Source: Brachionus manjavacas
Taxonomy: Eukaryota > Rotifera > Eurotatoria > Ploima > Brachionidae
Direction: 5' to 3'
DNA length: 64,000 bases
NCBI GenBank assembly: GCA_019054805.1
Contig: JAHQIY010000016.1
Location: 496,001 to 560,000, forward strand
Under the pieces are notes generated by a model. That model was not told the DNA's origin, made no database searches, and saw only the letters and a program-made list of their open reading frames with translations. Positions 111 to 30,970 of the stretch are shown here, in pieces; positions within the stretch are counted from its first letter, which is position 1, and each line of letters starts with the position of its first letter. Both the position numbers and the translations under genes were made by a program.

Positions 111-1695
111 AGTCTGTCAAATCAACGTCTCAAATTGCTGAATCAATACAGCGATTTCGTAAAACAAATAAACGATGAAATATTTTACCTTGATCAAAAG
201 GAACAAACAGAACTGAATCGCGACTGGTCTAATCCAAGCAAATTGGAGAGCTCTAGCCTGAAGCAGTACAAACAAAATCTAGATTATGAATTGGAAAGAC
301 GGCTCGTTATCAATATTAACCCAATTAAGCTGTTGGCTCAAACAATGGTTAATGAACAGCATCCAGCAGCTAGCCACGTCAAAGTATTTTAATAGAAAAT
401 TTTAATTAAAATTTTTTCAATTATCTTATTTACAGACCTATACTGATACTTTAGTCGAACATTTCAATTGGGTTACTCAACTATCTTATCTTTTATCAGT
501 CCATTTGAATCAATTAATCGATCACGAAAACGTAAATAAAAATTAAGTTTAGAAAATTTTTTTAGAAGATTTTATTTTTTAGTTTAAAAATGAGCATAAA
601 AAATTATGTGATCGAGTTGAAGAGCTGCGTAGTCAGTTGACAGATTTGATATCAAAATCAAATCATAAAAATCATGAGGATTCGATTAATAAATTGGACA
701 AAATGAGCATGGAAATAGTGAGTCTGACTACCAAGTTTGATTGTTGGTCCAACAAAAGCAAAACATTGACTCCATTCCAGCTACGAAGACAAAAACTCCA
801 TCCTCCTCACAATAAGTGCAAGTTTTTGGTTAACTACCGTAGATCACAAGTAAAAAATGGGAAAAAAATTTTCTTTTAAAATTTATCTAATTGATTTAAA
901 AAAAAATAGATAAATTTGGATAAAAATGAAGAGTGCATTGTTGAGGATAATAGTCAAAAGATTAAGTGGAAAATTCGCAAGGCTGGCTCCGATCAGACTA
1001 TTTTTGTTCCCAGTGTATGCTTGGAAATACCACCGCCTGATGAAGAAAGTCTCGATTTAATCCAACAGCTTAAAATTAGAATCGAAAGCTTAGACAAGCA
1101 AATATTGAGCTATAGACTTCAATTCAAAAAAGATCGATTGTTCAATAAAATGAACAAGATTAAAATATGTGATTTTGATGAATATGAGGAAAGAAAAAAA
1201 AGCGCTGATGCCACCACAAATTTTGATTTGATACTTAATAGTGTAAAATATGAAATAGAGGAATTGATAAAGCAATCGACCGTGTTAAATGGGAAAAAGT
1301 GCAAAAATCAGCATTTTATAGAGTTCTCGAATAGTGATGCCAAATTGTTGATTGATAGCTACGATGCGTGCTGCAAAAAACTAAATGATTTTAATGAAAA
1401 GTCAGCAGAAAAAAATCAATGTCAAAAATTTGAAAAAAAATTAAATTCAGACCTGGAGTGCCTTGAATTAAAACTTAAATATTTAGCTGAAAAATTGACC
1501 AAAATACAACAAACTGAACTAAAAAATTCGAATGGTCCCAAAATCATTGACAAAATCCTATCTCATTATCAGGTAAGTAAAACTAGAAGACAAAAATATT
1601 CACACTTTCTTGATATCTTCTAGAAAACGCTGATATTCTATCGATTTTCGATCTGGCACCCTCTGGCAAAACGCTTCCGAAAAGTAGGAAGTTGA
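111..1695 (+). CDS. Plakin-domain exons of a plectin/spectraplakin-type protein, 5' end outside window
   Basis: Exons read by eye: 111-383, 436-531, 583-849, 910-1572 and 1624-1683 (or 1624-1695 if terminal), all in one frame with GT/AG borders. The product is the first part of a plakin domain, the spectrin-repeat array that ties membrane junctions or the cytoskeleton to filaments. Early exons match the plectin pattern of a repeat followed by a conserved EHPA-like segment (here NEQHPAASH). The fourth exon carries the SH3-like strand ending VPSVCLEIPPPDEES, very close to the plectin segment ending VPSVCFLVPPP. The actin-binding CH domains expected upstream are outside the window. The last exon is odd: it can end at a donor after 1683 or run on to a TGA at 1693-1695, 25 bases before an AATAAA. 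So this may be the end of a short isoform or the first half of a longer gene. Family assignment is strong; the join to downstream exons is inferred. Confidence 0.8.
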
Positions 1696-6500: not shown

Positions 6501-9500
6501 CTGAAAAGAGGAATTAAACCGCTCGAAACTGTCCAGGAGTCCAACTCCTAAATTATTTTTCAAATAAATTAATTTAATTTTTTTTTATTTAAATAGAAAT
6601 TCAGTGAAATATTAACTGACTATAGAGAAAAAACGGTACATCAAGCCTTAGATCTAGCGGCCGGGCCTGATACAATTGTCAATCAGATACGATCAGAAGT
6701 GAACAACTTGAACAGGTAATTTGAAAATAAATTACTATAGCTCAAAGTTTAATTTTACTCTGTGAAAACAAAATTAAAACATTTGTATTTTCAAGGTAAC
6801 AAAATAAAACACCTTTTTTTCCAAAAGTAATAAATCTTGAAATTTTCTTATAAATTTTATTTTTACAGAGAATACTCAAGCTTGCTGAAAGAATATAATC
6901 AAAAAGTGAAAACAATTGTAAACTCGCTTTCCAAATCGGATAAACAATTTACGGTATGTTTAATTTTTTTTCTTTTTATATATTAGCTACTGTATCTAAC
7001 TGAAAAGTTTTCATAAAATCAAACATTTTCCATATTAGTAAAGCAATGAGGGAATAGTAAATTTGCATACAAAACACTTCTTTATTTAATTTAAAGCCGA
7101 GGTTTCTGCTAAAGACTTAAAAGTAAAGAAAATGTTTTTTTTTTTTTTAAATTGGAAAAGAGCTTATTTTGTTTTTGATTTTTTTATGATCTTGTTTTTA
7201 AAAAGCATTTTTTTTTAAATAAATTTTGTTGTCGGCTTTTTCTTCTTTGGGTTACTTTTTCCAAGCATATTGCTAGATTATTAAGGTCAACACAAAAGTA
7301 CTCAATCGATTCGAGTGATGATGGACACGACAGGGCTTGAATTTAAATTAATAGAAAAAATATTTAAATCTTTAATTAAACGGTGAGCTTTTAGAATTTT
7401 CATTAAGTCCATAGCCAGCGGCTATTTAAAAAAAGCAAAAAAAAGTAGGGACTTTATTCAAGTGGGTAATTTTATTGCTTTCATAAAGTATGAACCTCTA
7501 ATAAAAAAAGTATTGAAAGCAATTAAATTTACATTTTGATTCATCGTTTTGCATATTTTTCCAATTTTTAATTACTTTAAATCTATGTCAACCAAAATTG
7601 ATATTACGGCTTCCTTTTGGAATATTTCTAACCACAAAAAATCTATTTAGCTTACTCAACCAACAATCTATCTATTTATCTTTGACAAAACTACATTTTA
7701 ATAGTCAAAGTAACAAAATAAAAAAAAAAAACTACTTATACTACTAGTACTACTTGTGAACAAATAGATAGGTAAAAATGCAATTTTAATTAATTATAAA
7801 TAAAACAGATACTAAGAAAAATTTCGAAACCCAAAGATAAGATTTTGAATTTATTTTAAAATTGTAAAATTTTTAAACTAAAAAAAGAAAAACAAAGCAG
7901 GGTGAACATTCGCGACCTGGTTTCCAATTCACCTCTCTTTCTCTCTCATTCTCGTTTTCTTTTTTTGGCTCGTTTTCAAATTATAATCCTTGAGTAATTT
8001 TCTAATCGTGAAATTCTTTCAATTCAGATAAAACTATTTTTATAATTTTATTTTCAGCTCATGAATCATTTTCTCTAATTAATCACGAACAACAGCGATA
8101 AGCTAGTGAACAATTGTTTTAGCGTTCATTCAGCAACCAAAAAAAATCTATAAGATTAGCTCAAAGTCAATATTGAGCCGATTGTGGTTGTTGTCAATGG
8201 CAATAGCCAATTTCCGTGTATACCTTAATTAATTTAATCAGATCAAGCGCTTTCATTTTCTCCAAAGCCCTATTTTGCAAGCTTTTAAACTTTGTAAGAT
8301 TTCAAATCTGTAGCTCTCTTAAAAGCTGTGTTCTAAAGTGCAGTAGCAAATGTTTTGTTTAACTCGACTAGAACAGTAAAAAAAACTATAAAAAATATAA
8401 AAAATAAAAAGCACATGCTAATCGCATTTGCTTTAAGATCTAGTTTATACTAGCAATTATTATAATTTGGCAAGCGTTATAACTAAAGGGAAATTTTGCA
8501 ACAATTTCCCGTACAACAAAGTCAAAGCAAATTACGTGATTTTTTTGTTGCCAAATTGTTGTCATTAATATTAAGGAATTGTGAGTTTTGTAAAAAATTA
8601 GAAATTTCACTACGTTTTTTTCTCAAAGACCAAAATTGCTTCTGTAATTAGAACCAGCTGGCACACTAAACGCACCACCTAAATCCAGAGCCTGAGCAAC
8701 TAATAAGTGCAAAGTATTTGGTTGCGATTATCACAAGAAAGTTTTACTAGACTTATAAAAAAATTATTCCATTTTGTTCATTTAACTAAAATCTCTGAGA
8801 TTGATCAAACTTTTTTTTAGTTCAGCAAGACATTTTTGCTAAATTAGCCTGCTAAAAAAGTACTGTTTTGAGTCTGGTCTCTTCGGCGTACAATTAAAAT
8901 TTTGCAGGTATCAAGTTGGCACATTAAATGTACCAGCTAAATGCGGGTTTTGCAGAGTTTTTTTAATTTTTGCAGAGGGCAGCATTAGTAGGCAGCTTGA
9001 AGATGCCGCTTGGTTAAATTTGGACTCAAAACATTAATTAATTTTTTTGATTTTTGTTCTAAAATTCACAATGCTCAAATATTTAGCAATAATTTATTAC
9101 TAGAATGGCAAGACATAATTTTGTTATCTTGAGCGTTAAATTGAGTGCTATGGTGAAATACCTAGGGGAGAAACGCGCTTAATCGCTCGGCACATAATCA
9201 TCAAGGCTAATAGGAAAAAAAAAATTCTATTTTTATTGAAACTAATTAATTAAAAAAATGTTGAAAAAAAAATAATTTTTTTACCAATTTAAAAAAAAGG
9301 TGCATATTACGCTAGAAAATGCGGAGCCACTAATCGAAAAGTACAGTCAAGATCAATTCGAACGCTACGATCTAATCCACAGCTCTAGCTCAAGCCAAAA
9401 CAACTACTATTATTATGATACAAGCGAAAAAAACCTGCTCAACATAAACTCAATCATGGAGCCTAGGACTACTAGCAAATCGTGTGCAATCAACTTCATA

Positions 9501-12500
9501 GACGCGGTCAACCGCAAACAACTGGACTTGGAGACGGGCCTGTTCAAGGACCCGGCATCGAACACTTTTTCGATGAGCCTGGCGCAAGCTTTGCACCAAA
9601 ACCTGCTCAATGGCAAATCGGCGCACATCACCGACCCGCACTCGCTGCGCTCAAGCGACCTGCTCGAGTCGGTGAACACGGGCCTGATCACCGGCGACAA
9701 CAAGGTGCTCTTGTCGCCCAACTTCACACTGAGCCTGGCGGACGCGTTGAAAACGGGACACTTGAAAATTGGCGAAGTGGTGGCGCGCAACTGCAGCGTG
9801 TCCAGCGAGACCCAGTCGATGTCCATACGCAGCATCAAAGACCCGAAGAGTGGCGAGTTCTTGGCGCCCACCGAGGCCATCAAACGAAAGCTGCTCGATC
9901 CGTACAAGGGCCTTTTTTTCAACTCGGCCAGCAACGAACACATGTCGATCAGCGAGGCCATCCAAAAGGGCTATGTGCTCGTGGAGGTGAACGAGGAGGC
10001 GTTGGTGGCGACGCCGGTCGAGTCGAGCCGCGCCGATCAAAACGTGGTGAGCACAAGTTTGATACGCGAGACCAAGTCGTACCATTTGCTGGCCGTGTTC
10101 GACCCGAGCAAAAACGACGAGATAAGCATCAAAGAAGCGATACAGCGCGGCATCCTGGACCGCAAGCGCGGCCTCTACGTCCACCCGCAGACCAAGGCGA
10201 CGTTCTCGATCAGCGACGCGATAAACAAGGGCGTTATTAGAGCGCGACTGCTCGAGCGAGCGTCGCCGGCCCCGCTGCCGTCTACAGGCCAGCAAGACTC
10301 CTATCAAACGTTGGTATCGACGTCGCGCTTCGAAGAGAACCGAAGCTACACAATAACAGGCGCCGTCGATCCTCGCAACCGAGCCAAAGTATCGCTCTTC
10401 CAAGCGATCAAAGACGGCATAATAGACCCCAAAAATGGCACATATGTGAACGTGACGAGCGGCGAAACCATCCCTATAAACAAGGCGATCGAGAGCAAGC
10501 TTGTTTTGACCGACACTGAATGGCACAAGCCTGCGATCAAAGCGGCCGCCACTGTCCAAATAAAAACGCTCAATATTGAGCACGTAAAGGACCCGCGCAC
10601 TGGCAGAAGCGTGAGTGTGAGCGAGGCCATGCAAATCGGCCTTTTGGACAAGAACACGCTAAACTACAACAATCCGCTGACTCACCAGAGCCTTAGTTTG
10701 AATAGAGCGTACGAAAAAGGACTAATTTTGGGTCACTATAGCGAGTCGGGCGCAAAAAGCCACGCCAGTTCGGTGAGACGCGACGAGCAGTCCTATTTCA
10801 TTGTGGACATGTACGATCCGGTGTCGAACAAGTCGGTCGATTTGGACCAGGCCATACGGCAGCGTTTGTTCGACCACAGCCGGGCAGTGTACGTGCATCC
10901 GGTGAACGGAGAGGAGATGTCAATTGGCGAAGCGGTGCGCAAAGGCCTCATCAACGCGCAAATATTCACGGCCGAACACGAACTCGAGCACGAGCCCAAG
11001 CGCTTCGATGCCCGGCTGCCCGTCGGCCACTTTGGCATAGACAAAAAAATTCGCTCCATCCGAACCAAATTTAACAAGGACGGCACCAGTGTGCTGCAAA
11101 TCGACATCGAAAGCACCAAGCCCGTCAAGGGCGTCTACGAAGTGGACGAAATAGAAGAGTTGACGTGCAACGAGCCCATTCAGGCGGACGCCCGTCAGCC
11201 AGCCCATCGACAAGTAATCGACATTAGCTCGGTGCATTGTTTGAGCGAGCAGCAGCAGCAGTTGCAGCACCGGGAGCCTGAGGTGCCTGTGTGCAATCTT
11301 TACAGAGACAAAAATGTTGTCAACATAGCCATAAATAAAGAGATTGGCGCGCATCTGTTCGACATCAAGCGCATCGAAGATGTGCTCGACGACGAACGCT
11401 CAGGCGTCATCACAATAAATGTGGACAAGAACAACAACAGCAGTGGCAGTAGCAGCAAACAAATTGTGGAGAGAAAGAATGTGATGGAAGCAAGTGAGAG
11501 TTTGCAGCCGCCGTTGATCATAGACGATTCGAACAGTAAGCTAAAGCAAACATCGATTAGCATCGATGGCCAGAGGCACGTGTGCAAAAATGAAGTGCAA
11601 GTGGCGGACTCGTCGGCAACGAGCAGGCCGACCAGCGAGCTGTTCAACGCCACACAGCAAAGCGTGTGGCAGCTGGACCAGCGGCTGCGCTCAATGGAAA
11701 GAGACAAAAATCAGCAAGTCAAGGTCAAATCGGCCGAAATAGTCGACAACTATGCCAAGAGACAATCGAGCTATTTTAACATCGAGCAGGACACCGTGGT
11801 AAACAGGGAGCGTCGCATAAATGTCACTGTTGACATAAAGACCGAGACCAAGCCGCAGCACATACCGGTCGAGGAGATCTACGAGCCAAAGGAGACAAAA
11901 AAAAGCGACGCCAAACATTTGTACGAGGACACGACCATAGTGGACAAAATTGACGTGCCGCCACTCACTCAGCCGGAACACGAGGACGAAGAGGAAACAT
12001 TCGAAGAATGGACCGAAGTGTACACTATAACAATACGCGGCATGCGCTACAAAATAATCTGGGTCAACGATGCTCTCAAATGCGAGAACGTCACTTTGGT
12101 GGAGGCGATCAAGCGCGGCATTTTGGACCTCAAAAACGGAGTGTATCACAATCTCAAAACGTCGCATAGTCTGACTGTGAACGAGGCTGTGGACGACGGC
12201 CTTATCGGCATCGAACAAGACACCAGTGCAATGACCATCCAAGTAAACGGAATCACATATACCATTTACTGGGTTTGGGATCCTGTGAAACGCAAGCGGA
12301 TCAGTCCACAAAGAGCCATTGATCGAAAGGTTTGTCTTTTTTTTCTTTCTTTCTTTATTCAATTATTTATTTGTGTATTAAATTGTGTAATTCAAATACA
12401 AATTGAACTGAAAAATTCTTCCTTTTTTAATTAATTAAAAGTAAAGATATTATTTTATTTTACAGTACCGATTTGACAAGTGGATTTCTGGTAATTTTAC

Positions 12501-15500: not shown

Positions 15501-18500
15501 AAAGTATCAGAAAATCATTAACACTAGAAGCACCAAATGGAATTTTAATAGAATCTAATGAATAAAAATTAATTATTTGGATAAATCTATTCAAAACTTA
15601 ATTTTAATTGAGTGAAAATCAGAGTTGTTTAAAAGTCTCAAAAAAAAGTCCAAAAATTTTTTTTTTCAAAGTTCAAGTCAGGACTTTAAATTTTTATTTC
15701 TTTTTCTTTTTAGATAATTAATTAATGTAAATAAAAAAAATAAGCATAAGCTTTTGAAAAAAAAAAGTCCGGACTTGCACTTGACTTGAGACTTGTGACT
15801 TTTAAACAACTCGGTTGAAAATACAAATTTGGCTAAAAAAGTATCTGGCAAAAATTTTATCTTCTAATGAATTCATTTCTTTTTGAACCAATTCTTCGTC
15901 TTTCATGTAAAATACGCAAAATATAATTTTTGCATTTTTTAAATCTGCTTATCTTCGTTCAAGTATTAGGATTTGAGTCAGTTTTTTAAAGAATTGTATA
16001 TTTTTAATTAATATTTTTTGATTCAATCATTGATTTTGTTATGTGATGCTTTAAGTAGTACATACTTGATTTTGTACAAAGGATTTTTTTTTATTTGAAT
16101 TTAGTTAATTTAGAAAGTTATTCTTATTTTTATGCTGATAATAAAAAAATTGAATTAGATTTTAGCGGCCAAAAATCGAAAAAGAGTCATTTTGACTCAT
16201 TGGTGCTTCTAGTGTTAAAATCCAATTGCAGAGATTTTGCAGAGATTTTGCAGACTTAATTTAGGAGGTACAAAGTATGCATCAGCTGATATATTTTGCA
16301 GAACAATTTTTAGACTCATAGTAAAAAAGCTGTTTCATTGTAAAATTTTTGTTTTTTTTATTTGCTTTGATCCAAAATTCACAATGCCCTTTCATATCAA
16401 TTTTTAAAAAAATGAAAAAAATACCTTGGTTTAAAGGCGTTAAGCGTGCTTTTAAAATTCTAAAAATAATTTGATCTCCAATTGACACTAAAGTAAAATT
16501 TACCATTTTAAAAGGTGTTGGATTTGCAGAATAATTGGTATCGCAACTATGCCAACGGAGAGACTATATCCATACACGAAGCGGTGTACATGAAATTGAT
16601 TGGCGCTTCGGACGATTTGACCAACATAGAACAAGAGCTCACTTTGACCATCGACAGTACCGAGTATCGCATTTGCTGGGTGAAAGACAGCCGGACTGGC
16701 GAAAAGCACAAGCCGCGCGAGGCGCTGCGACGCGGCCTCCTCGACCTCACCAACTATTTCTACAACAAGTACGACACGAACCAAACGCTGACGATCAGCG
16801 AGGCGATCCGACAAGGCTTTGTCGGCCTGAGCGATGCCAAGGAGCCCGAGAGCGAGTGCTCGAGCGACGGCGAATTCGAACGACAAGACTCGTTGTCCTC
16901 GCTGGACGACGAAGAGCTCACAATAAAGACCAAGACGGCCATCTATGTCATCACAGGCCTGGTGCATCCGGAGACTCAGAAAGAGATCAAAGTGTCCGAG
17001 GCAATCAAAAGCGGCATTCTCAACAAAGAAAACGGATACTACAAAGACTTTAAGACAAATGTGACGTACGAAGTGGGCGAAGCGATCAACGAGGGCTTTG
17101 TGTTCGCCACTGTGACCGATCTGCTGCAGGACGAGACCGCCTCGACCGAGTTCATTCGCGAAGAAATCAAAAAGTTCATTGTCAAAAGTGTGATTGACCC
17201 GCGCAGCAAGCAACGCATCGGCGGCCTTCAAGCCCAAGCGGCCGGCATACTCAACTACGCCCAAGGCATGTACACCAATCCGGACACCAGCCACACCATG
17301 TCCATCACAGAGGCCATCAACCGCAATTTGATCCAAGTGACGCTGCAGGAAGAAACCTCCCACGAGGAATTCGACGCCGAAGTGATCACCGAAACGCTGA
17401 TGGAGCGAACTGTCACCGTGTACAGGATCACAGGCGTCCTTGACCCCTTTACCAATGACATTATATCGGCCGGCGACGCTGTGCACAGACAAATAATCGA
17501 CACTGAGACCAACAGCTACATTGATGGCGCGTCCGACCAGCAGCCGATACCAATCAAGGAGGCCGTTAGACGCAATCTGATCAAGGCCCAAGTGACCGAG
17601 AGAATTGAACGCAAGCCGCTGGGTGTCACGCTGCAAAATGCCATACGCCTCGGCCTGTTCAATGTGGAGACGGGAAAGTTCAAGGACTTGTACACAAACA
17701 AGTACTTTGATTTGAATCACGCGGTGGACAAGGGTCACGTGAACGCGAACGGCGCCGCTGTCGCCCAAAGCTCCACTGGCTCAATGACTCTCAACGAAGC
17801 GTTCAAGTATTCTATTTTTGACAAGAAAACTGGCGTCCTTGACCGCACTCGGCTTGCCATGTTCAAGGCCAAGATAGTCGAGGCCAAAGTTTACAAATGG
17901 AACTTTGAGGACGCGGTCAAGTGCGGCTTGGTCAACTTAAAAAGCGCCAAGTACAAGCATCAACAAACGGGCGAGTCCATGTCGATTAAGGACGCAGTGA
18001 ATCGGGGCCTGATTGACGGCGAGTCGGTCATTTTGGACGATGTGCTGACGGGCGCGCCCATGACTTTGCGCCAAGCGCTCGACACCAAAATTTGCATTGA
18101 CCACAATGGGGACATAGTGGACGCGGCCACCTCTGCCGTGGTCATGTCGCTGGAGCAGGCGTTCAATACGCGCAAGATATTTTCGGCCTTTGACGAAAAT
18201 ACCGGAGAAATATTTTTAGTAAGCCTGGGCAAATTGGTGGCCTTTGAGAAAGCGATTCGAAAGAACAAAATGGACAAGTCGATACGCGTGTTCGACCCCA
18301 GATCGAACAAGGACTTGAGCATCGGCGATTCGCTCGAGAGGTGTCTGATCGACAAGACCAGTGGCATGGTCATCGATCCGAAGGGCTGTGGCGGACTGCT
18401 GAGCATCAAAGAGGCGGTCAAGAGGGGCATTTTGTCGATCACGGGCGCTCCCTTGGTCACAGGACACCACAACTCGGAGACCATTGAGGCGCCCGTAATT

Positions 18501-21500
18501 ACCTCGCGCAAGACAAGACACATTTTGCACAAATTCGACGACATCACCGAGCCAAAGCCTCACCACACTCGACACCACAAGCAGAAGAGTGAGCACAGGC
18601 CGCCGCTCCGAACTCCCATTGTTTACGACAGCGAGTACTTGAACAGTGATGTGATCAGAAGCAATCCGGGCCTGGTCGACCGCTCAGCAGTTACCAATGT
18701 AAAGTTGACTAATGAAGAGCATAGGAGGAGAACAAGCGCAAGCGGAGTCAAAGAGACACTCAAGGCCGACTACAAGGAGACGCTTATTAGACCCGGTCAG
18801 GTGCCTGTGGTCACGTCGTCGGCCAACTATGAGAAAGAGTATACAAACGCTTTGGGTGATGACAGTTCAATTAATAATCTTCAGACTAGATTTAGTGTTA
18901 AATCGAGCGATCAAGGTAAGGACTAGAGATCAATCGCCAAGTTAAATTGTGTATAAAAATATTTGAAGAAATTGATGATTTCCTTATTCTTTTTTTTCTC
19001 TTTTTTTTTCTCTTTTTTTTTATCAACAGACAATTTAAATAATCGACAATGAAACGAAATCAAATTATTTTTTTGTTTAATTTTTTTTTTAATTTTGCTT
19101 AATATTAACTATATAATTTTTGTTTAGTTATTATTTTTTTTAATTAAATTTAAAATTTTTAATATTTTGAGTTTTTTTTAGTTTTTTTTTTGTCGATCGA
19201 AACAAAAGAAATTAATTATTTACAAATAATAAAAGATTTATTTTTTAATTCAAATTAAAATTTTTAATTTTAAACCCTATTTATTTTTTTCTAACTAAAT
19301 ATTTAACACCATTTCAAATAACATTTTATGATGAATTTCACACTCAGAAATATATGTCTTTTTTTAAAAAATTCACACAATTTAAAAAGGAGAGTGAAGT
19401 TGGGAGCAAAGAAATTTTTTAAAATTGTTTAATATAAAGGTCCATAATTTTTCCTCCCGCTAATTTTAATTAAAATACCGCTATTTTAATAAAAAATTCG
19501 CTATTTTAGTAAAAAGAAATCTAATTTACTAAAGTAATGTCTAATTTTATAAAAATAATCTATACTAAAAAAAAAAATAAAATTAAATAAAAAAAAATTT
19601 ATTTAGTTTTTGAATTGCATCTGGAACAAAAAAAATATCTTCTCTTAGCCATTGGCATGTTGCAAGTTGAGCACAATTTATTTTCTTCTTTTTGAGTACC
19701 ATTGTCCAGTTTTCAGTCCTAAATTTTTCCTTTTCCTCTTGTAACAACAACAGCTTCTTCATCAATATTATCAGCGTCCAATATTGACTCGTCAGGGTTA
19801 TTCAAGAGAATACTTTCACTACTTGATAATTTGAAATTTTTTGCTAAAATAATTTTATTTTTTTTAAAGTTTTTAAATAGCTGTAATTTATTTATTTGTT
19901 AACTGTACCGAGCTTAAGCTCCTTCAGAATAAAACCAAAAAATAAAAAAAAATTAAATAAAATAAAAATAAAGTATATTTTTATTTAATTTAGAGGGAGG
20001 TGTTATTAATTTAGACGTATTTTTATTTTTTTAGATGAGTTTCTATTTATTTAGATGAGTTTTTTTTATATTAGAGGTAAGCTTATTGAATTAGCGGAAT
20101 TTTTAAAAAATTAGCGAAGTTTTTTAATAGCGGTTAAAAAATTAAATGCTTCATTATTTAATTCTATATTTTTTAATTTTTTAATTGAATTTACATCGCC
20201 AGAATTGGCGCTAATTGAGTAAATAAATTAGCGCTAATTCTGGCGCCAATTTTATTTCATCGAATGCTTTAAAGGCGATGTAAAATAATAATAATAGTTT
20301 ATTAATAAATATTTTTTAAATTTTAACAAAATTAGTTATTTATTGTTAAAAAATAATTTTGTGCCAATATTCATTTGAAATAGTTATTCATATTTTATTT
20401 GAACAAAATTACTTTGTTCCAAAAAATAGCCCCCAACTTCACTCTCTCAAATTCAAAAAAATTTTCATGATCCTGATTAAAAATTATCTTGGAAATTTAA
20501 ATGCAAATACATTTGACATATGAGTAGCAAACCATGTTATACCATACCGGAATATTGTGAATGCATAGAATTTTTGGATATTTGCCGAAATTCGCAGATA
20601 AAATTTAAGGATTACTATAAATGTTTACTTTGAAAATATCCTTTTTATTTTGATAATTTCGCCATATTTTTTTTTCAATAATCATTTAAAAAACTTCTTT
20701 TAATGATAGTTTTTGAATATTATCACTTATTTTTTCCAAAAAGTGTATGTTGCACTAATGCGGTTTTAATTTTGTCCTGCAAGTAAAACAGTTATTGTTT
20801 TATGATATTGATTAAGCTTTTTTTAATGATTATTAAATTCTGATTTGAAAAATATCGGATCGATCTGATTGACATATAGAAGAAATGGAATTTGTTATTT
20901 TGTTCAAGCCTTTTTTTTAATTTTTATTTTTTTTAATCAAAAATTTTTTTAAAAGGAAAATTTAGAAGTATTGAAAAATAAAAAACTAATTAATTTGCAG
21001 AATTTTTTGAAAATTTAACATAGAATTGCTTCATTCAAATTTTATTATTCTCGGAATTTTGAAATTTTGCAAAATCTTTTCAAATTGAATTGAAAGTGAA
21101 TGAAAAATTTAATATTTTAATGGGGTTGGGAAAAAATTATTCTGGCTTAATTGATTAAATATTTGCTTTAGAATTCAAGTGAAATAGTTTTAGATTTCTG
21201 GTCTTTTATAAACCAGATTATTTAAATGTTTTTAAACCAGTTTATTTCAGGAAGAAACAATTAGCATTGTTAATTGAGGATTAATCTTGTTTCCTTGGTT
21301 ATTTTTTTCCGACATTCTTCAATTTCCGTATCTATTAGCCCACTCTTGCTGAAAAAAAGAGACTACCATCATAAACCGAATGCAAATTAAGGAATTAATC
21401 GTTTAAAAGTAGTTATTCGATACCAAGATTAATATTTGACTAAAATCGATCAATATCAAATTTTTTCATAGCCTCTAGAAAAGGAAAAAAGCAACGTGTT

Positions 21501-21790
21501 GTTTTCTTTTTTGCCAATAAATAAAAAATAATGGTACTTTAAATTTATTTGTTTTATTAGATTCGTTTGATCGAATATGTAAATTTGTCGATGATTTAAT
21601 ACACGGTGGCGAACTAGAGTCAGCTACATCAATCAAAAAAATAATCAATCGAAGCCAAATGAGCAAGAATTTAGATCCGTCAGACAGAGATCTCATAGAT
21701 TTTTTACAATTTTACAAGAAAAAATTCAACAAAATCAAAGATATTGATTTCGTTTCTGAAGTAGATTTAAACACTTATGATAAGGAATAA
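3096..21790 (+). CDS. Plectin-type plakin: Ser/Arg-rich head, spectrin repeats, plakin-repeat domains (multi-exon)
   Basis: Proposed join: 3096-3557, 3620-3804, 5071-5218, 5271-5452, 5512-5710, 5770-5853, 6597-6715, 6869-6953, 9300-12329, 16515-18915, 21561-21790. The total is 7125 bases, an exact multiple of three (2374 residues), and every junction keeps phase with GT/AG borders. Order: basic head, helical spectrin-type repeats, two large plakin-repeat blocks separated by a charged linker, short C-terminal tail. There is no GAS2 or EF-hand module in the window, so it resembles plectin or the nematode VAB-10A isoform more than the microtubule-binding spectraplakin form. Plakins link actin and intermediate-filament-like networks to adhesion sites. 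Exons 111-1683 may precede this chain in a longer isoform, because 1683 also ends in phase 0. Exon borders are my reading and have not been tested against transcripts. Confidence 0.7.
3620..6953 (+). CDS. Spectrin-repeat exons of the plakin domain
   Basis: Eight small exons: 3620-3804, 5071-5218, 5271-5452, 5512-5710, 5770-5853, 6597-6715, 6869-6953, entered from 3557 in phase 0. They encode long amphipathic helices with heptad-like Leu/Ile spacing, for example NLVKNLISLLEG, AWIAKLEQRL and EIAEEIKKRF, typical of spectrin repeats. The chain ends KSDKQFT in phase 0 and joins the plakin-repeat exon at 9300. The intron 3805-5070 contains a LINE 3' end at 4895; the others are short except 5854-6596. 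Counted with the head exon there are eight exons here; without it, seven. Confidence 0.65.
4895..4950 (+). mobile_element. LINE 3' terminus with hairpin and (TAAA)-like tail, copy 1
   Basis: TCTGAAGGAGTTTATGCTCGGTACAG followed by AAAACAAATAAATAAAATAAA. The same end occurs at 19883-19930 and 37923-37959 on the minus strand. The GGAG...CTC halves form a small stem, better preserved in copy 2 (GAGCTTAAGCTC). A conserved stem just before an A/T-rich microsatellite tail is typical of non-LTR retrotransposon 3' ends used for priming. It sits in the intron between exons 3620 and 5071. No coding part is visible next to it. Confidence 0.5.
6954..9299 (+). other. Long plakin intron, 2.3 kb
   Basis: It joins KSDKQFT to the plakin-repeat block. 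It is AT-rich with no coding stretch I can support. It holds an imperfect direct repeat of about 27 bases (8650-8676 and 8912-8938, core GGCACAYTAAA). No transposon ends were recognised. Confidence 0.5.
9300..12329 (+). CDS. Plakin-repeat exon 1 (about 15 half-repeats plus charged linker)
   Basis: A single 1010-codon exon, phase 0 at both ends, with acceptor AG at 9298-9299 and donor after AIDRK at 12329. It carries tandem plakin repeats of about 38 residues with the signature S-x-x-E-A-I-x-x-G-x-x-D (for example ISIKEAIQRGILD, IPINKAIESKLV, MSIGEAVRKGLIN), followed by G-x-Y/F-x-x-P. Roughly residues 570-890 are a linker rich in Asp, Glu, Gln and Ser with no clear repeats; repeats then resume (VTLVEAIKRGILDLKNGVY). 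Plakin repeats build globular modules that bind intermediate-filament-type proteins. The last half-repeat is cut by the intron and completed by the next exon (AIDRK then VLDLQNNWY), which supports the splice. The exon is strikingly GC-richer than the flanking introns. Confidence 0.85.
12463..13020. mobile_element. TA-flanked palindromic MITE (Tc1/mariner-like)
   Basis: Both ends begin CAGTACCGATTTGACAAGTG and continue as near-perfect inverted copies for about 50 bases, then degrade into ACGTAAATTT-type repeats. TA flanks each side (12461-12462 and 13021-13022), as expected for Tc1/mariner target duplication. There is no ORF. Inside, a unit of about 110 bases is tandemly duplicated (about 12614-12720 and 12729-12838) and partly repeated in inverse (about 12840-12908), so the element can fold on itself. 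It lies just inside the plakin intron, 133 bases after the donor. Confidence 0.8.
13131..14148. repeat. Degenerate foldback repeat built of ATCATCAAA units
   Basis: The left part is dominated by irregular ATCATCAAAA/ATCACCAAA units. The right part (14040-14148) has the complementary TTTGATGATGAAA units, and the outermost blocks (TTATCAAAAGGG and CCCTTATCAAAA) also resemble each other in inverse. The match is imperfect and no target duplication was found. It could be an old palindromic element or simple-sequence expansion. Confidence 0.35.
14160..14926 (-). pseudogene. Non-LTR (jockey-like) reverse transcriptase fragment, broken
   Basis: Read on the minus strand, the stretch contains RT motifs in order: GSCLSPTLF, then ALFADDLCIW with the catalytic F-A-D-D box, then KKWGFKINKTK, FLGIKLDP and a later block IRSLFNYCFIILNSG. 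The parts lie in different frames: a one-base shift falls near 14745 between IVEF and KKWGF, and another near 14480. Both the N-terminal half (endonuclease) and the 3' end are absent. It is a dead 5'- and 3'-truncated insertion in the plakin intron. Confidence 0.8.
14931..15123. mobile_element. Short foldback element of about 190 bp
   Basis: The left arm (14931-14979, ATATTTGGAAAAA ... GGCACCTTTTTTGCCT) is matched imperfectly in inverse by 15072-15123 (AGGTAAAAAAAGGTGC ... TTCCAAATAT). There is no ORF. It fits a small MITE. Target duplication is unclear. Confidence 0.5.
15132..15339 (+). mobile_element. Possible tRNA-derived SINE
   Basis: Starts with a tRNA-like 5' half containing TAGCCGAATGG, which fits the RNA polymerase III A box (TRGYNNANNNG). 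About 50 bases later GTTATGAGTC is a weak B box. A body without coding potential follows, with a small GCTATTTTTAGGC-type stem near its end. It cannot fold into a functional tRNA as far as I can see. Copies elsewhere in the genome would be needed to confirm it. Confidence 0.35.
15522..16214. mobile_element. piggyBac-type MITE with TTAA target duplication
   Basis: The terminal inverted repeat is CACTAGAAGCACCAAATG on the left and its inverse on the right (CATTGGTGCTTCTAGTG). TTAA lies on both sides (15518-15521 and 16215-16218), the hallmark of piggyBac transposition. The subterminal palindrome GAGTCATTTTGACTC sits just inside the right end. There is no transposase ORF. It is inserted in the loop of the foldback element at 15340-16388 and is itself interrupted at 15620-15814. 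Confidence 0.85.
15620..15814. mobile_element. hAT-type MITE with 8-bp target duplication
   Basis: Begins CAGAGTTGTTTAAAAGTC and ends with its inverse (GACTTTTAAACAACTCGG). The flanks GTGAAAAT (15612-15619) and TTGAAAAT (15815-15822) match 7 of 8 bases, as expected for hAT target duplication. The interior has AAGTCC/GGACTT runs. Related ends occur at 40351 and 52565-52619. It is nested inside the piggyBac-type MITE, making it the youngest insertion of the stack. Confidence 0.8.
16515..18915 (+). CDS. Plakin-repeat exon 2
   Basis: Enters in phase 0 after AAAAG and completes the repeat interrupted at 12329. It encodes about 800 residues, mostly plakin repeats (ISIHEAVYMKLIG, LTISEAIRQGFVG, MSITEAINRNLIQ, MSIKDAVNRGLIDG, LLSIKEAVKRGIL). 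A short acidic Ser insert follows the second pair of repeats (SECSSDGEFERQDSLSS). The last 150 residues or so are a His/Lys/Arg/Ser-rich tail without repeats. The donor is CAAG/GTAAGG with the exon ending at 18915 in phase 1; reading through gives a stop 9 bases later, so a variant ending GKD is possible. Several repeats have lost the consensus Gly or Asp, so the array is old and diverged. Confidence 0.85.
19883..19930 (-). mobile_element. LINE 3' terminus with hairpin, copy 2
   Basis: On the minus strand: ATTCTGAAGGAGCTTAAGCT followed by CGGTACAGTTAACAAATAAA. The GAGCTTAAGCTC stem is a perfect 12-base palindrome. It shares its design with copies at 4895 and 37923. It lies inside the element at 19390-20446, so it inserted later or was carried along. 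Confidence 0.55.
20191..20285. repeat. Hairpin with GGCGCTAATT arms
   Basis: TTTACATCGCC at the left pairs with GGCGATGTAAA at the right, and inside them AATTGGCGCTAATT pairs with AATTAGCGCTAATT. It resembles a tiny foldback insertion within the 19390-20446 element. Confidence 0.5.
21561..21790 (+). CDS. Short C-terminal plakin exon
   Basis: AG at 21559-21560 is followed by a stretch that restores the phase-1 frame from 18915 and stays open for 76 codons to a TAA at 21788-21790. The peptide (DSFDRICKFVDDLIHGGELE, then an acidic and basic helix ending DLNTYDKE) has no repeat I recognise. It is too short for an ATG-based ORF search to flag. Support comes from the exact phase match, the consensus acceptor and codon-like composition inside very AT-rich DNA. 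If it is wrong, the gene would end soon after 18915. Confidence 0.5.
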
Positions 21791-24700: not shown

Positions 24701-24890
24701 AAGACGAACCGCAATCGTTAAGAGTAATGATTAATTCAAAAATACTAAAATATCAGAACTCGAGCTTTAAATTTTATTAATAGCCAAAATTTTGCTATTG
24801 TTGCAAAGGCTTAGTAATTTGAAAAAAAAAAAGCTTTTCCTAATTACTTTACCTATTTTTTAATTTTTTCAAATAAAAAAGCATTCTATA
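21791..24890. other. Intergenic gap of 3.1 kb between the two plakin genes
   Basis: AT-rich, with no coding stretch or transposon end that I can support. It contains the perfect 26-base palindrome at 23731-23756. Its right end runs into the GA-rich block before the intronless plakin gene. Confidence 0.5.
23731..23756. promoter_or_regulatory. Perfect 26-base palindrome with ACCGGT core
   Basis: AATTAATTATACC followed by its exact reverse complement. The ACCGGT centre resembles the core bound by Grainyhead/CP2-family factors (AACCGGTT), regulators of epithelial genes. It lies about 1.2 kb upstream of the intronless plakin ORF. A regulatory role is speculation; a chance palindrome of this length with a GC core is unlikely but possible. 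Confidence 0.3.
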
Positions 24891-24926
24891 GAGAGAAAGA
24901 GAACTAGAGAGAGAGAGAGAGAGAGA
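24891..24926 (+). promoter_or_regulatory. (GA)n tract upstream of the intronless plakin gene
   Basis: An almost pure GAGAGA run follows CTATAGAGAG at 24886, 70-100 bases before the ATG at 24994. GA-rich tracts recruit GAGA-type factors and mark promoters in several animals. It supports a separate transcription start here. Confidence 0.4.
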
Positions 24927-24993
24927 CATGTATTAAACAAAGCTTATCTCAGTTTAGATAGAGAAACTCTGGTCACTCGAATGTCACATTAGG

Positions 24994-27900
24994 ATGAAAA
25001 AAATAACCATACTGGATGCATTTGAGCCTTTTAAAGAAGAATTTGTTCCCATCAAACAAGCTATTAACCAGGGGCTGTTCAATACGAGCACATACTTGTA
25101 TTTTAACCCGGTGGAGAATCGGCACTATTCGATTACGGAGGCGGAAAAAAATGGCTTCTTGCGACTGGCTATCGACCAAAGACCGGAGGCGTTGGTGGTC
25201 GAGCGCATCAAAGTGTCCCAGCAGGTTTCGCTGGTGTCGGCCAGGGACCCGCAAAACAAGCAACGCCTCGTGCCCATTAGCCAGGCCATCTACTTGGGCA
25301 TAGTCGACAACAAGTCCAAAGTCTATGTGGATTCTGTTCAGGGCAAAGAAATCGACTTGGGCGACGCGTTCGATTCCGACTTGATCCAGGGAAACATTGT
25401 GCGAGAGTTTACCGAAAAAGTGACCGAGACTTTGACCGAGCAGAAAAATCCGCAATCAATTGGCCTGTTGAAAAAAACCGAAACACACACATACGGAATG
25501 GGAGACGATGAGCCACAGGAGCTGACCCGGGTGAACGGGGTGTTTGTGTTTGACCGGACCAAGTCGGTCAGCATCAACAAAATGATCAAAAAATTCGACG
25601 ACGAGATCATGGCCGGCTTCATATCCGAGCCGGACTCGTGCCGAATGCTGGGCCACGAGTCGAGCGACCAGGTGATTGACTTTGGCGATGCGTTGGCAAA
25701 AAATTTGGTCATTATGCCGGACAGCTTGACATTTGAGCAGCATGTGTTGTACGCTCTGGACCTAGGCTCTGGCAACAAGTTCGACTTTGAGGCCGCTTGT
25801 GAAATCGGCCTAATCGATGTCAAAAATAGGACTTTTTTCGACACCAAGCTAAACAAATCGATAAGTCTATTTGAGGCGTTGGCCAAAAATTACATTGTCA
25901 TGAAAGACGAGCTGAACACCAATTACAACCAGAGCGAAATCGACGACCAGTCGAACACAATTAGCTATTTGGATTTGAAAAGCATGTTCGACCCGTCGTC
26001 GGGCATTCAGGTGACGCTCAAGCAAGCGCTCGATTTGGGCATACTGAGCAAAGACAAGCAATTCTACGTGGACCTGTACAATGGAAAAAGAATGGGCTTG
26101 TACGAGGCGGTCGAAAAAGGACTGGCCATGCTCAAGCCCGAGAGGGTCAAGCACAAAGTGAACGAGGGCTACCAGTACTTGGTCATCAACGGTGTCTATG
26201 ATCCGGTGCAGAACAAAGAGATGAGTTTGGCCGAGGCCATTAGTTGCGGATTCTTGGACTATTCCGAGTCTGAATTTCACGACCCGTTGACCGGTCAGAC
26301 CATGTCTTTGCTGGACGCCTACGACAAAGGATACTTGAAGACCAAAATCACCGACTCGGACCACAATGATGACGAAGCTAAAAGTGACGCGGCCGGATCA
26401 GCAGAGCAAACTTTGGACAGCCACGCTGACCAGCACACACGTGAGTCTAGGGTGGACGCTGGCGCCACCAAATTGCTCAGCAAGTCGTATTCAGTGTCGC
26501 CGAGGCGGCACAATGGCACAGTGGCCAAAGTTCGCTCGGCGTCTGCCTTCGACGTCAAATCGGTGGACAAGTTGTCGACGGTGAGCCGCCAGAGTGTCAT
26601 GTCGAAAATAAAAGCCAAGCTGCTGGGCAAAAAAGCCAAGTACAATCAATTCAATGAGTATTTGATCCAAGAGTCGATGAAAATTGTGGACACCAAGAGC
26701 AAGCAAATGTATCAGCTAAAAGAAGCCATCGAGCACAATTTGCTAAGGCCAAACGAGCGGGTGGTTGACGCCCAGAGCCAACACGACTACTCGATCAACG
26801 AAGCAATACAAAATGGACTCATAAAGTTTTTCCATCCCTTGAACAACTTTGAATTCAAGTACAACCAAAGTTGCTGCATTTTCAAAGACGACATGCTCCT
26901 GCTGGTCAACTATGTGATCGAGCCGAGAACCAAGCGCAAAATTGGCCTCAAATCAGCCTTTCAACATGAAATAATCGACCAAAAAAAATCCACTTATTTC
27001 AAAAAAAAACACATCGATCTAATAAGAGCAATCGAGAAAAGCTACATATCTTGTGAAATAATCGACTTGAATTTACTCAACTCAATAGTTGCTTCGAATG
27101 TGTTCAAATTTTGCAAAGACCAAAAACCATCACCACTCTCACACTCACCCTCATCCTCACCACCATCCTCACCACCAACATCACCACCAACATCACCACC
27201 AACATCACCACCCTCACCACCACTATCACCAGTAATGCGTCAACACAGCAAGAAAGATGACGAGTCTGTGTCAGAATGCGACCAGTTTAAAGAGAAAGCA
27301 GAGCGCAAACACCATCACCAGCACCACCAGCACCACCAGCACCACCAGCACCACATAGCCAACAGCATCCTAGCACAATCGGGGCTCAAGTACAACCCTT
27401 ACGGACACTACTGCATTGCCGAGGTGTTCGACTCGGACAAGTCGGCTTTTGTCAGCCTCAAAAAAGCTCTCTCACTGCAAATATTCGACTCGGACACAAA
27501 CGAGTACGTGGACTCGGCGAGCGGTGAGTCGATGAGCCTGCTGAGGGCGATTCGGCGAGGAAAAATTCGCTTCACAGAAGTCAAGAGTGAGTCGAGTGGG
27601 GGCAAAAGTTTTTGCGATTATGACGAGATTGAAGAGGAGGAGGAGGAGGGCGGGTTGCCGCGCTTGACCTCGACCCTGAAGAGCTCGCCGGCCTACGAGT
27701 CTCTTCCCGACGAGGAAATGGACGCGCCAAAATCGCACCTTAGCCAAACACCCTCGCTCAATTCAGCGCCTGCCGCCACCGAGCTTGACCTTGACATTGT
27801 CAGGACTTTGCTGTACAAAAAGTCTTCCAATGGCCGGTACATTCGCTTCGACCGGGTCCTAAAGCACGGCCTGTACGAGCCCGCCAATGCCACTTTCAGC

Positions 27901-29892
27901 GACGTCGCACACAACCAGTCGCTGTCGATTTATGACGCGCTCAAAAAAGGCCTGCTCAGGTTCAATCATCCAAATGTTCTATTTGACGATCATGGCGTCT
28001 ATGTGGTCGACTTTGTGCTGGCAAATAGCCGAAAAATTGCTCTTACCGAAGCTGTTCAAAAAAAAGTCGTCGACAAGTCGAGAGCTTGGGTCAAATTTTT
28101 GAACCAACACTACACTTTCAATGAAGCCTTTCGCAATGGCTACTTCCACGCCAAATTGATTACTTTTGCCGAGATCAAATGGGCGTTGGACGATTTTGCC
28201 AAGCGAAGAGACAAAAAATTGAGCAAACTCAATGGAGACACCATTGCCGCTCTGTACACGCCAGTCTCCGTGTCCAAAACAAACGCGCCTGACTTTGGCA
28301 TATTTGACAGTGGCACCGATTCGTACATGTGTGTGAGCGAGGCGGTCGCGGCCGGTCTTTTGCTCAACGATCCCGTTCGAGTCCTAGACCCGGCTACCAA
28401 CAACTACATACTGCTAAAGGACGCAGTGCTCAAAGGTCTGCTCAGCTGTGAGCCCACGAAAATGGTCAATTTCAAGAGTTCCTTTTTGGCGCACAACCGA
28501 AAAAGCTACTTGGTAGACTGTGTCTACGATCCGAGAAAAAATACCAAGTATTCGCTGTCGGACGCGATCAAAACCGGTGTGTTCAACAATGGCAGCTACA
28601 AAAATTTCCTAGAAGGCAAATTGCTGCCGATGGACGAGGCCATTCAGAATGGCTTTGTCAAAGCCAAGCTCATCGACTTTGATTTGATCGAGATGAGTGT
28701 CAAGAGGTGGATGCGCGAACAGTCTTCTTCTTCGGCTCCTCGCAGCAGGCCAAGTAGTCGAGGAGCATTGACCGACGAAGAAGACGACGAGGCGCAAACG
28801 CGCCAAAGACCCAGGACTGAAAGTCTCGATACAAGAAGAAAGCAGAGCACTTTGGACACGAGGTCGAGGATGGAGCCGTACTCGGCCCGCATTGTCTCTG
28901 TCCAAGATGTGATCAGTGGCAAGTACATCAAAGTAGACGATGCGGTCAAGTATGGCCTGATCAATTTCCGCGAGGGAAATTTCAAAAATTCGCTCACTAA
29001 CCAAACTTTGAGCATCAATGAAGCCATGAATAGGGGATTCATTTTGGTGGAGAGCAACTTGGACAGGCTGCAATCAAGGAAACGAGCTCAGAGTGTGCGA
29101 AGCAGTCGAACACTGGACTCGGCAAAGAGCAGTGTTGACTTTTTGGAAACGAGCCGCATCGAAATAGGCTCGGAGTTGAAAATTTTGTCTGTTCTGGACC
29201 CGATTAGAAAGGATTATTTGAGTTTGAGCGAAGCAGTGGAAGCGGGAATATTTGACGTCAACTCGACAATGTATGTTGACTTGCGCACTGGCAAAAAACT
29301 CACCATGGTCGACGCCATTGACCAAAATCTGATAAAAATAGCAGACCAACATTTTCGGCCTTCTTTCAAGCTAACTGTCGAGGAGAACGATAGAAATTTT
29401 GTCAAAAACATAAAAATACTGTCCATCCGCTTCATAGTTGACTTGTTTACGCAGCAAGTCATACCGGTTAATGTGGCTAGTCACAAGAAGCTGATCAACA
29501 CCGAAAATGGCACCTATGTTGCATTCGAAAAGATCATGAGCCTCAAGGAAGCGTATGATAGGTGCTTGGCGTTGACATGTGACGATTTGGATAGGCAAGA
29601 CTCTGCGAGGAGCAAATTCCGCGTTGTGTGCGTTCGCAAGTCGACCACTGGCAAGAACATGAGTCTAAGATCGGCGCTGGCCAAAAATTGGATCAATTTG
29701 GACCGCAGAGTCTACATAGACAAAATGACTAATCAAGAAATGCCTTTTTCACAAGCGGTCGACATGGACTTGTTGGTTCTCAAGTCAAGTGCTGATGATC
29801 AAATGGTGCCTAGCAAAACAACTGCTAATTCTATGTCCAGGAGCAAGAGCAAAGACGGCTACTTCAATAGCTATTCAAGTCGGATATTTTAG
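24994..29892 (+). CDS. Intronless plakin-repeat protein, epiplakin-like
   Basis: An uninterrupted 1632-residue ORF, ATG to TAG. Nearly all of it is plakin repeats (VPIKQAINQGLFN, MSLAEAISCGFLD, LSIYDALKKGLLR, LSINEAMNRGFIL, LSLSEAVEAGIFD). It has no CH, spectrin, GAS2 or other module. Low-complexity linkers occur near residues 450-550 (Ser/Lys/Arg), 710-750 (Pro-Ser-Thr), 770-790 (His-Gln) and 1240-1290 (Ser/Arg). The tail SRSKSKDGYFNSYSSRIF recalls the Gly-Ser-Arg tails of plectin and desmoplakin. Vertebrate epiplakin is likewise a plakin-repeat-only protein from one exon. A likely role is binding filament proteins. It is probably a separate gene: the exon ending at 18915 (phase 1) cannot join the nearby acceptors at 24952, 24957 or 24992 in frame. 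A splice from a phase-0 donor (6953 or 12329) to 24958 is still possible. AATAAA lies just after the stop, at 29900. Confidence 0.85.
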   Translation: MKKITILDAFEPFKEEFVPIKQAINQGLFNTSTYLYFNPVENRHYSITEAEKNGFLRLAIDQRPEALVVERIKVSQQVSLVSARDPQNKQRLVPISQAIYLGIVDNKSKVYVDSVQGKEIDLGDAFDSDLIQGNIVREFTEKVTETLTEQKNPQSIGLLKKTETHTYGMGDDEPQELTRVNGVFVFDRTKSVSINKMIKKFDDEIMAGFISEPDSCRMLGHESSDQVIDFGDALAKNLVIMPDSLTFEQHVLYALDLGSGNKFDFEAACEIGLIDVKNRTFFDTKLNKSISLFEALAKNYIVMKDELNTNYNQSEIDDQSNTISYLDLKSMFDPSSGIQVTLKQALDLGILSKDKQFYVDLYNGKRMGLYEAVEKGLAMLKPERVKHKVNEGYQYLVINGVYDPVQNKEMSLAEAISCGFLDYSESEFHDPLTGQTMSLLDAYDKGYLKTKITDSDHNDDEAKSDAAGSAEQTLDSHADQHTRESRVDAGATKLLSKSYSVSPRRHNGTVAKVRSASAFDVKSVDKLSTVSRQSVMSKIKAKLLGKKAKYNQFNEYLIQESMKIVDTKSKQMYQLKEAIEHNLLRPNERVVDAQSQHDYSINEAIQNGLIKFFHPLNNFEFKYNQSCCIFKDDMLLLVNYVIEPRTKRKIGLKSAFQHEIIDQKKSTYFKKKHIDLIRAIEKSYISCEIIDLNLLNSIVASNVFKFCKDQKPSPLSHSPSSSPPSSPPTSPPTSPPTSPPSPPLSPVMRQHSKKDDESVSECDQFKEKAERKHHHQHHQHHQHHQHHIANSILAQSGLKYNPYGHYCIAEVFDSDKSAFVSLKKALSLQIFDSDTNEYVDSASGESMSLLRAIRRGKIRFTEVKSESSGGKSFCDYDEIEEEEEEGGLPRLTSTLKSSPAYESLPDEEMDAPKSHLSQTPSLNSAPAATELDLDIVRTLLYKKSSNGRYIRFDRVLKHGLYEPANATFSDVAHNQSLSIYDALKKGLLRFNHPNVLFDDHGVYVVDFVLANSRKIALTEAVQKKVVDKSRAWVKFLNQHYTFNEAFRNGYFHAKLITFAEIKWALDDFAKRRDKKLSKLNGDTIAALYTPVSVSKTNAPDFGIFDSGTDSYMCVSEAVAAGLLLNDPVRVLDPATNNYILLKDAVLKGLLSCEPTKMVNFKSSFLAHNRKSYLVDCVYDPRKNTKYSLSDAIKTGVFNNGSYKNFLEGKLLPMDEAIQNGFVKAKLIDFDLIEMSVKRWMREQSSSSAPRSRPSSRGALTDEEDDEAQTRQRPRTESLDTRRKQSTLDTRSRMEPYSARIVSVQDVISGKYIKVDDAVKYGLINFREGNFKNSLTNQTLSINEAMNRGFILVESNLDRLQSRKRAQSVRSSRTLDSAKSSVDFLETSRIEIGSELKILSVLDPIRKDYLSLSEAVEAGIFDVNSTMYVDLRTGKKLTMVDAIDQNLIKIADQHFRPSFKLTVEENDRNFVKNIKILSIRFIVDLFTQQVIPVNVASHKKLINTENGTYVAFEKIMSLKEAYDRCLALTCDDLDRQDSARSKFRVVCVRKSTTGKNMSLRSALAKNWINLDRRVYIDKMTNQEMPFSQAVDMDLLVLKSSADDQMVPSKTTANSMSRSKSKDGYFNSYSSRIF
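27128..27231 (+). repeat. In-frame minisatellite coding Pro-Thr-Ser repeats
   Basis: ACATCACCACC-type units encode repeated SPPT inside the intronless plakin ORF. It keeps the frame, so the unit number can vary without breaking the protein. It probably forms a flexible linker between repeat modules. Confidence 0.8.
27308..27355 (+). repeat. In-frame repeat coding His-His-Gln
   Basis: CACCACCAG-type units give a run of HHQ triplets in the linker just before the next plakin repeat. It is coding low-complexity sequence. Confidence 0.8.
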
Positions 29893-30278: not shown

Positions 30279-30970
30279 GGATCTTGCCTGTTATGTGACC
30301 AAGGGGGTCATGTAATATGTGACCTGTCAGTTTGGTGACCGGATATTTTTTTTTCGGGTCACATAAGTTTGGGTCACACATTATATGAACATCGATACCA
30401 AATATTTACAGATTTATAGGTCACCAAAATATTTTAATGGGTCACAAAAGTATTCTGATGGGTCACCAAAATTTAAATAATTCCAAATTTTTTAAAGACA
30501 AAAATTTTAATAAAATAATTCTTTCAACTGGTCCAGATGAAGCAGGTATTGATAAAAATTTTTGTGCAAGTCATGAATTGACTAAATTTTTTTTTTTCAA
30601 GTCAAAGTTATGACTTGCACAATAATTTTTATCAATACCTGCTTCATCTTGACCAGTTGAAAGAATTATTTTCTAAATCTGGTTACATTTAGAGACCACA
30701 TAGGTCAAGATTAACGGCCAGGAATTTGGAAGCAACTACTTAATTGGTATCAAATATGGATTTATTAAATCATTGACTTGACTTGTGACTTAAAAACAAG
30801 TCTGTTTTTAAGCAAATAATTAAATGGGTCACCAAATATTTTGATGGGTCACAAAAATAGTTTGGTTTAAAATAAAAAAATAAGAAAAAAAATTATCCGG
30901 TCACCAAACTGACATAAGTCATCAGGTCACATATTACATGACCACCTTGGTCACATAACAAGCAAGACCC
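30279..30970. mobile_element. Inverted-repeat element with GGTCAC motifs and 8-bp flanking repeats
   Basis: Ends GGATCTTGCCTGTTATGTGA and, in inverse, GGGTCTTGCTTGTTATGTGA; similarity continues for about 65 bases (to GTTTGGTGACCGGATA). The flanks CTGTGAAT (30271-30278) and CTGTAAAT (30971-30978) match 7 of 8, a hAT-like target duplication. Many GGTCACAAAA/GGTCACCAAA units line both halves. There is no ORF. A further hairpin is nested at 30515-30671. Confidence 0.75.
30515..30671. repeat. Long hairpin nested in the 30279-30970 element
   Basis: Arms 30515-30574 and 30608-30671 are nearly perfect inverse copies (AATAATTCTTTCAACTGGTC ... GTGCAAGTCAT) around a loop of about 33 bases. If transcribed it would form a stem of about 60 pairs, similar in shape to a small-RNA precursor. 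The simplest reading is a tiny foldback transposon. Confidence 0.65.

Follow-up and report, generated by a model that had tools for sequence, protein, structure and literature searches.

In the rotifer Brachionus manjavacas, an open reading frame (ORF) of 1632 codons encodes a predicted protein of ~185 kDa that consists of plakin repeats and linkers only and lies in tandem, on the same strand, directly behind a plectin-like gene. Judging from the sequence, we hold with moderate confidence that the ORF is a gene of its own. It was found in a window of 64,000 nucleotides (C16:496001-560000; positions without a contig name refer to the window), and genome searches covered 114 Mb in 61 contigs. 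In this reading, the ORF would be transcribed from a promoter of its own and translated from the ATG at 24994, and the protein would therefore be made without an actin-binding or plakin-domain end. The features on which the argument rests are collected in Table 1.

Table 1. Features of the plakin locus, in window positions
Feature	Position	Strand	Details
SH3_10 (plakin-domain SH3) exon part, neighboring gene	910..1032	+	Pfam
E1, plakin-repeat exon, neighboring gene	9300..12329	+	Donor aag/GTTTGT, phase 0
E2, plakin-repeat exon, neighboring gene	16515..18915	+	Donor aag/GTAAGG, phase 1
E3, probable last exon of neighboring gene	21561..21790	+	T-rich acceptor, phase 1; 75 codons; TAA overlapping AATAAA
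(AG)10 tract	24906..24926	+	Read from sequence
Upstream out-of-frame ATGs (24928, 24981)	24928..24992	+	Stop in frame after 1-2 further codons
Open, noncoding-like stretch	24958..24993	+	Candidate acceptors 24958 (phase 0), 24962 (phase 1), 24993 (phase 2)
Plakin-repeat ORF	24994..29892	+	~31 half-repeats, ~14 paired modules and linkers; Pfam, own profile, coding model
AATAAA	29900..29905	+	Shortly 3' of ORF stop

The uninterrupted frame and the plectin-type gene beside it had both been recognized in the first-pass annotation, and both were borne out. The frame is open throughout 24958-29892, with its earliest in-frame ATG at 24994 and its stop at 29890-29892. With the stop frequency of the flanking noncoding DNA, 7.7% per codon, the chance of an equally long open run has a log10 probability of about -57, and a coding model for which the ORF was left out of the training data, and E1 and E2 included, gave it a score of +757 nats. 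The ORF is a member of the plakin repeat family (PF00681): Pfam Plectin matched the whole protein with an E-value of 6.2e-50 and 167 bits, the family cut-off being 20.5, and was the only Pfam family matched, with no hit to CH, SH3, spectrin, or GAS2.

Using a profile built from the window, we counted 30 half-repeats in the ORF at >3 bits and 31 at >2.5 bits, both of which are lenient cut-offs. The half-repeats are mostly paired, 24-28 residues apart. A complete first module begins at about residue 3, directly behind the ATG, and the C-terminus is a short Ser/Arg-rich tail. The description of the protein as almost entirely plakin repeats was thus right about the repeats and too strong about their share, since 31 cores of 27 residues make up 51% of the protein. 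For comparison with solved structures, we used a profile of 11 window segments, four from the ORF and seven from E1 and E2. By this mixed profile, the plakin repeat domain fold is predicted to be related to the solved domains of desmoplakin (3.5e-21, with an 11-residue gap at the repeat spacing), envoplakin (5e-12), plectin (5.4e-12), and periplakin (0.0062); a single-sequence search of solved structures with the ORF alone gave no match at 0.01.

The lack of introns in the ORF is nothing special, because E1 and E2 are likewise giant uninterrupted exons and, elsewhere in the genome, 8 of 13 intermediate-filament match rows cover nearly the entire rod profile in one open frame. Just 3' of the ORF, we observed nested inverted-repeat elements at 30279-30970, with arms at 30279-30326 and 30923-30970 enclosing a second hairpin at 30507-30677, whose arms measure 73 nt; sequences of both parts are seen again elsewhere in the genome. 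An ankyrin gene lies downstream of the ORF, as does, on the minus strand at 57694-59568, a gene for a TIR-domain protein (TIR_2, 4.5e-20).

The neighboring gene can be followed upstream to a partial CH domain near C16:494450, outside the window and on the same strand as the ORF. We presume that all these exons, from CH and SH3 to the repeats, belong to a single transcript. Matches to GAS2 were found in the genome on C22 and C36 only, and we therefore consider the neighbor plectin-like. The intron between E1 and E2 splits one repeat that reads cleanly across when the two are joined; the acceptors of both exons are in phase 0, and the E2 donor ranks first of the 38 GTs around it in a small splice model. 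Phase 1, as left by this donor, fits the acceptor of E3, which is probably the neighbor's own end. The intron between E2 and E3 contains an interspersed repeat at 19380-20450, with short inverted ends seen by eye and with pieces that match many sites in the genome (102 rows including its own copy).

The repeat exons differ from the rest in base composition, GC3 being 0.69 in E1, 0.69 in E2, and 0.62 in the ORF, compared with 0.31 for the plakin-domain exon (910-1620) and 0.29 for E3; the other nearby frames range from 0.24 to 0.70. This contrast could reflect separate expression of the repeat part. The GC3-poor E3 ought to share transcripts with the GC3-rich E1 and E2. Long open frames on the minus strand at 9651-10658 and 16500-17780 are shadows of the GC3-rich repeat exons.

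The probable terminal exon E3 of the neighbor and the complete first module after the ATG both favor an independent gene. The sequence before the ATG bears on the same question. The 12 codons (36 nt) preceding it have a log-likelihood ratio of -1.7 nats, a value so low that it was found in only 1.2% of 36-nt exonic windows. With such noncoding-like sequence before it and a whole module right after it, an ATG at this place would be a coincidence if it were inside a longer exon. The start is less clean in another respect: the mini-frame of the ATG at 24981 stops one base short of the main ATG and both upstream ATGs lie within 66 nt of it, an untidy picture for a translation start if they are part of the leader. 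For Brachionus plicatilis, ESTs gave 5' leaders averaging 52 bases and revealed no spliced leader (PMC1925144). The 294 bases 5' of the ATG had no second match in the genome except for 39 bases over the AG tract.

The marks of an independent transcription unit listed in the first-pass annotation, namely an ATG of its own, a GA-rich tract upstream, and an AATAAA after the stop, are all present in the sequence, and they differ in what they are worth. The ATG is the first in frame and is followed by a complete module, with the two out-of-frame ATGs before it counting against it. The GA tract lends no support to a start site. Among 20 (AG)10 tracts, 10 per strand and taken from 100 listed of 189 overlapping matches, three lay within ~800 nt of a same-strand open frame with a score of at least 30, in one case with the opposite strand scoring higher, vs. 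28 of 400 random stretches (7%); the difference is too weak to count, and we rejected the tract as a promoter sign. The AATAAA is real yet a poor argument for a gene end, since chance alone places one in the 20 nt after a stop in 7.5% of cases.

It was also stated that nearby acceptors do not restore the frame from the last large plakin exon, and this did not hold: the acceptor at 24958 requires phase 0, as left by the E1 donor at 12329, and that at 24962 requires phase 1, as left by the E2 donor at 18915. The ORF could, then, serve the upstream plakin gene as an alternative 3' end, used to the exclusion of E3, with some transcripts ending at E3 and others skipping E3, or also E1 and E2, into 24958 or 24962, yielding a plectin-like protein that carries a second repeat array. 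We regard this as possible though unlikely. Consistent with it, the acceptor at 24958 scores 0.93 in the small splice model and so exceeds the phase-0 acceptors of both E2 (0.42) and E1 (-3.8), the raised GC3 is common to E1, E2, and the ORF, and invertebrate plakins such as VAB-10 have alternative isoform ends. Of 275 nearby AGs, 16 are better than 24958, fewer than outscore the E3 acceptor, and the acceptor at 24962, which sits four bases past a competing AG, reaches -1.73, on a par with that of E3. AGs in all three phases occur between 24943 and 24993, and the compatibility of the acceptors is therefore expected by chance. Joining at 24958 would, moreover, add the 12 codons that look noncoding and leave the in-frame ATG before a complete module as a coincidence, and the join from 12329 to 24958 breaks the repeat that is rebuilt by 12329 and 16515.

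Quite improbable, in our judgment, is that E3 is no exon and that a single large plakin gene constitutively ends with the ORF as its final repeat exon. The strong E2 donor has to join something, and E3 has its weaknesses: its peptide matched no Pfam family and, elsewhere in the genome, nothing convincingly, its coding score is unremarkable (the 150-nt mean was reached by 25.6% of 559 overlapping open noncoding windows), its acceptor is middling (-1.6, outscored by 56 of 275 nearby AGs), and none of four gene-finder parses used it. Against this, E3 has 75 open codons in the right phase behind a T-rich acceptor, and its stop overlaps AATAAA. From 18.9 to 25.0 kb, no other YAG acceptor has 10 or more pyrimidines among 15 bases and is followed by 50 or more open codons. 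In 300 simulated noncoding sequences of 6 kb, a phase-1 exon as long as E3 appeared in eight, and the length together with the coding score in none. The in-phase acceptors left for a direct join from E2 are 24962, with the competing AG before it, and 25037, which is inside the first repeat.

The predictions of three home-made gene finders, giving four final parses, are to be read with the flaws of the programs in mind: the splice models of the first became poor as it ran, the second took up antisense shadows of high-GC exons, and the third was trained on five introns. Three of the four parses started the ORF at 24994, apart from E2, and two of these three wrongly extended it into the downstream ankyrin gene. 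In the third gene finder, a gene cost of -6 gave a clean separate ORF and a cost of -12 joined E2 to 25037. The gene-finder evidence on a separate or a joined ORF thus hinges on one cost setting and is undecided.

By origin, the ORF is an old offshoot, or else it belongs to an old array. That it is a recent copy of the neighbor's repeat exons, made by tandem duplication or retroposition, as suggested by the tandem position and by the similar totals (31 vs. 30 half-repeats and 14 vs. 14 paired modules), is extremely improbable, as module identity between the ORF and the neighbor averages 22.6% with a best pair of 37.9%, module order is not collinear (P value 0.61), the modules of the two interleave on a poorly resolved tree, and no further copy was found in the genome. 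We therefore rejected a simple or recent duplication from E1 and E2. The same low identity, missing collinearity, and interleaved tree, together with a genome search in which the ORF matched, besides itself, only E1, E2, and an exon on C22, are our reasons for an old origin, for which an old duplication followed by turnover is a possible source.

The relationships among modules are correspondingly diffuse. Mean identity is 20.9% within the ORF and 25.1% within the neighbor, and mean BLOSUM scores within the two sets are 38.5 and 54.0, the ORF repeats being the less alike. In the neighbor, modules next to each other resemble one another more than the average pair does (P value 0.04), which is not so in the ORF (P value 0.63), and closeness within and between arrays does not differ significantly (P value 0.19). 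A phylogeny of individual modules against the neighboring gene, part of the check proposed at the outset, placed them in interleaved order, with 10 label changes vs. a shuffled mean of 10.5 (243 of 500 shuffles were as low), and a single clade of ORF modules was neither supported nor rejected (AU P value 0.067; no starred fork). A profile search of prokaryote genome contigs and viral contigs found no relatives, as expected.

The closest parallel in architecture is vertebrate epiplakin (EPPK1), which consists of repeats only, has a single coding exon, and has PLEC on its 5' side (PMC8782857). The ORF likewise sits downstream of a plectin-type gene on the same strand, and, if it is a complete gene, it shares with epiplakin the lack of a plakin domain, CH, and GAS2. 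The likeness ends at the repeats. Epiplakin has B-type domains with 4.5 repeats of 38 residues, whereas the ORF half-repeats are paired at 24-28 residues; the ORF modules average ~21% identity, unlike those of epiplakin; and human epiplakin is 552 kDa (PMC5979291), compared with ~185 kDa. Because repeat spacing and module divergence differ, we do not class the ORF as epiplakin, and of the proposed epiplakin-like arrangement the repeat-only reading unit and its match to the PLEC-EPPK1 layout stand. By analogy, the ORF protein may nevertheless work like epiplakin. EPPK1, described as a unique member of the plakins, has been dated to jawed vertebrates, having been found in Gnathostomes but in neither lamprey nor sea squirt (PMC8782857). 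Given this dating and the different repeat spacing, an old partition of plakin function shared with vertebrates, which the first-pass annotation had offered as one explanation, is not supported.

Among invertebrate plakins, the ORF shares the repeat family with plectin and VAB-10A-type plakins such as its neighbor, and differs in having no CH, SH3, spectrin, or GAS2 match itself. The same genome contains a Shot/MACF-type spectraplakin at C22:710-729 kb, which also carries plakin half-repeats, far fewer (10 found) than the ORF, and differs from the ORF in its SH3_10 and GAS2 and in a GC3 of 0.30 in its repeat exon. An SH3_10 match on C27 was considered as a third plakin and rejected, since the opposite strand encodes a protein with UIM and SH3_1 and the region has no plakin repeats. 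For molluscs, brachiopods, insects, and flatworms, spectraplakins with large numbers of plakin repeats have been described (PMC9145010); these repeats lie inside spectraplakins, unlike the ORF, and the main text of that paper names neither epiplakin nor a rotifer. The name epiplakin appears in two expression studies of ascidians, in one of them for a Ciona gene given as a plectin/desmoplakin/epiplakin ortholog, closest to plectin, and in the parts drawn upon here neither states a repeat-only architecture (PMC7397655, PMC9953650). Among the titles listed in searches of the open-access literature, none concerned such a gene.

Candidate partners for the encoded protein are present in the genome. 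At 10 places, intermediate-filament matches exceeded the family cut-off (11 of the 13 rows, two of which share one frame), whereas 5 of 14 control genomes gave matches, none over the cut-off. Intermediate filaments are bound by plakin repeat domains, probably through a basic groove (PMC5979291, PMC9145010), and other partners have been suggested as possible for protostome repeats (PMC9145010). Following this, the many weak repeat modules on flexible linkers would bind intermediate-filament rods at several places simultaneously, the products of the 10 places being possible partners, and the ORF protein would bundle, cross-link, or shield filaments without tethering them to actin or junctions. 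Epiplakin is thought to bundle or protect keratins in this manner, and the rotifer intracytoplasmic lamina is built of an intermediate-filament-like protein. This lamina is contained in the rotifer epidermis (PMC13403294).

We see the balance as even on whether an epiplakin-like linker of intermediate filaments, made of repeats only, has arisen independently in a nonvertebrate animal, in tandem behind its plectin-like gene and alongside a separate spectraplakin and a set of ~10 intermediate-filament genes. If the ORF is instead an alternative last exon, it would show how one plakin gene switches between repeat arrays. An independent nonvertebrate case would show that free repeat arrays are useful by themselves and would add an animal for testing the effects of repeat-only plakins on intermediate filaments. 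It would mean that the plakin-repeat tail repeatedly escapes into a gene of its own where epithelia lean on intermediate filaments.
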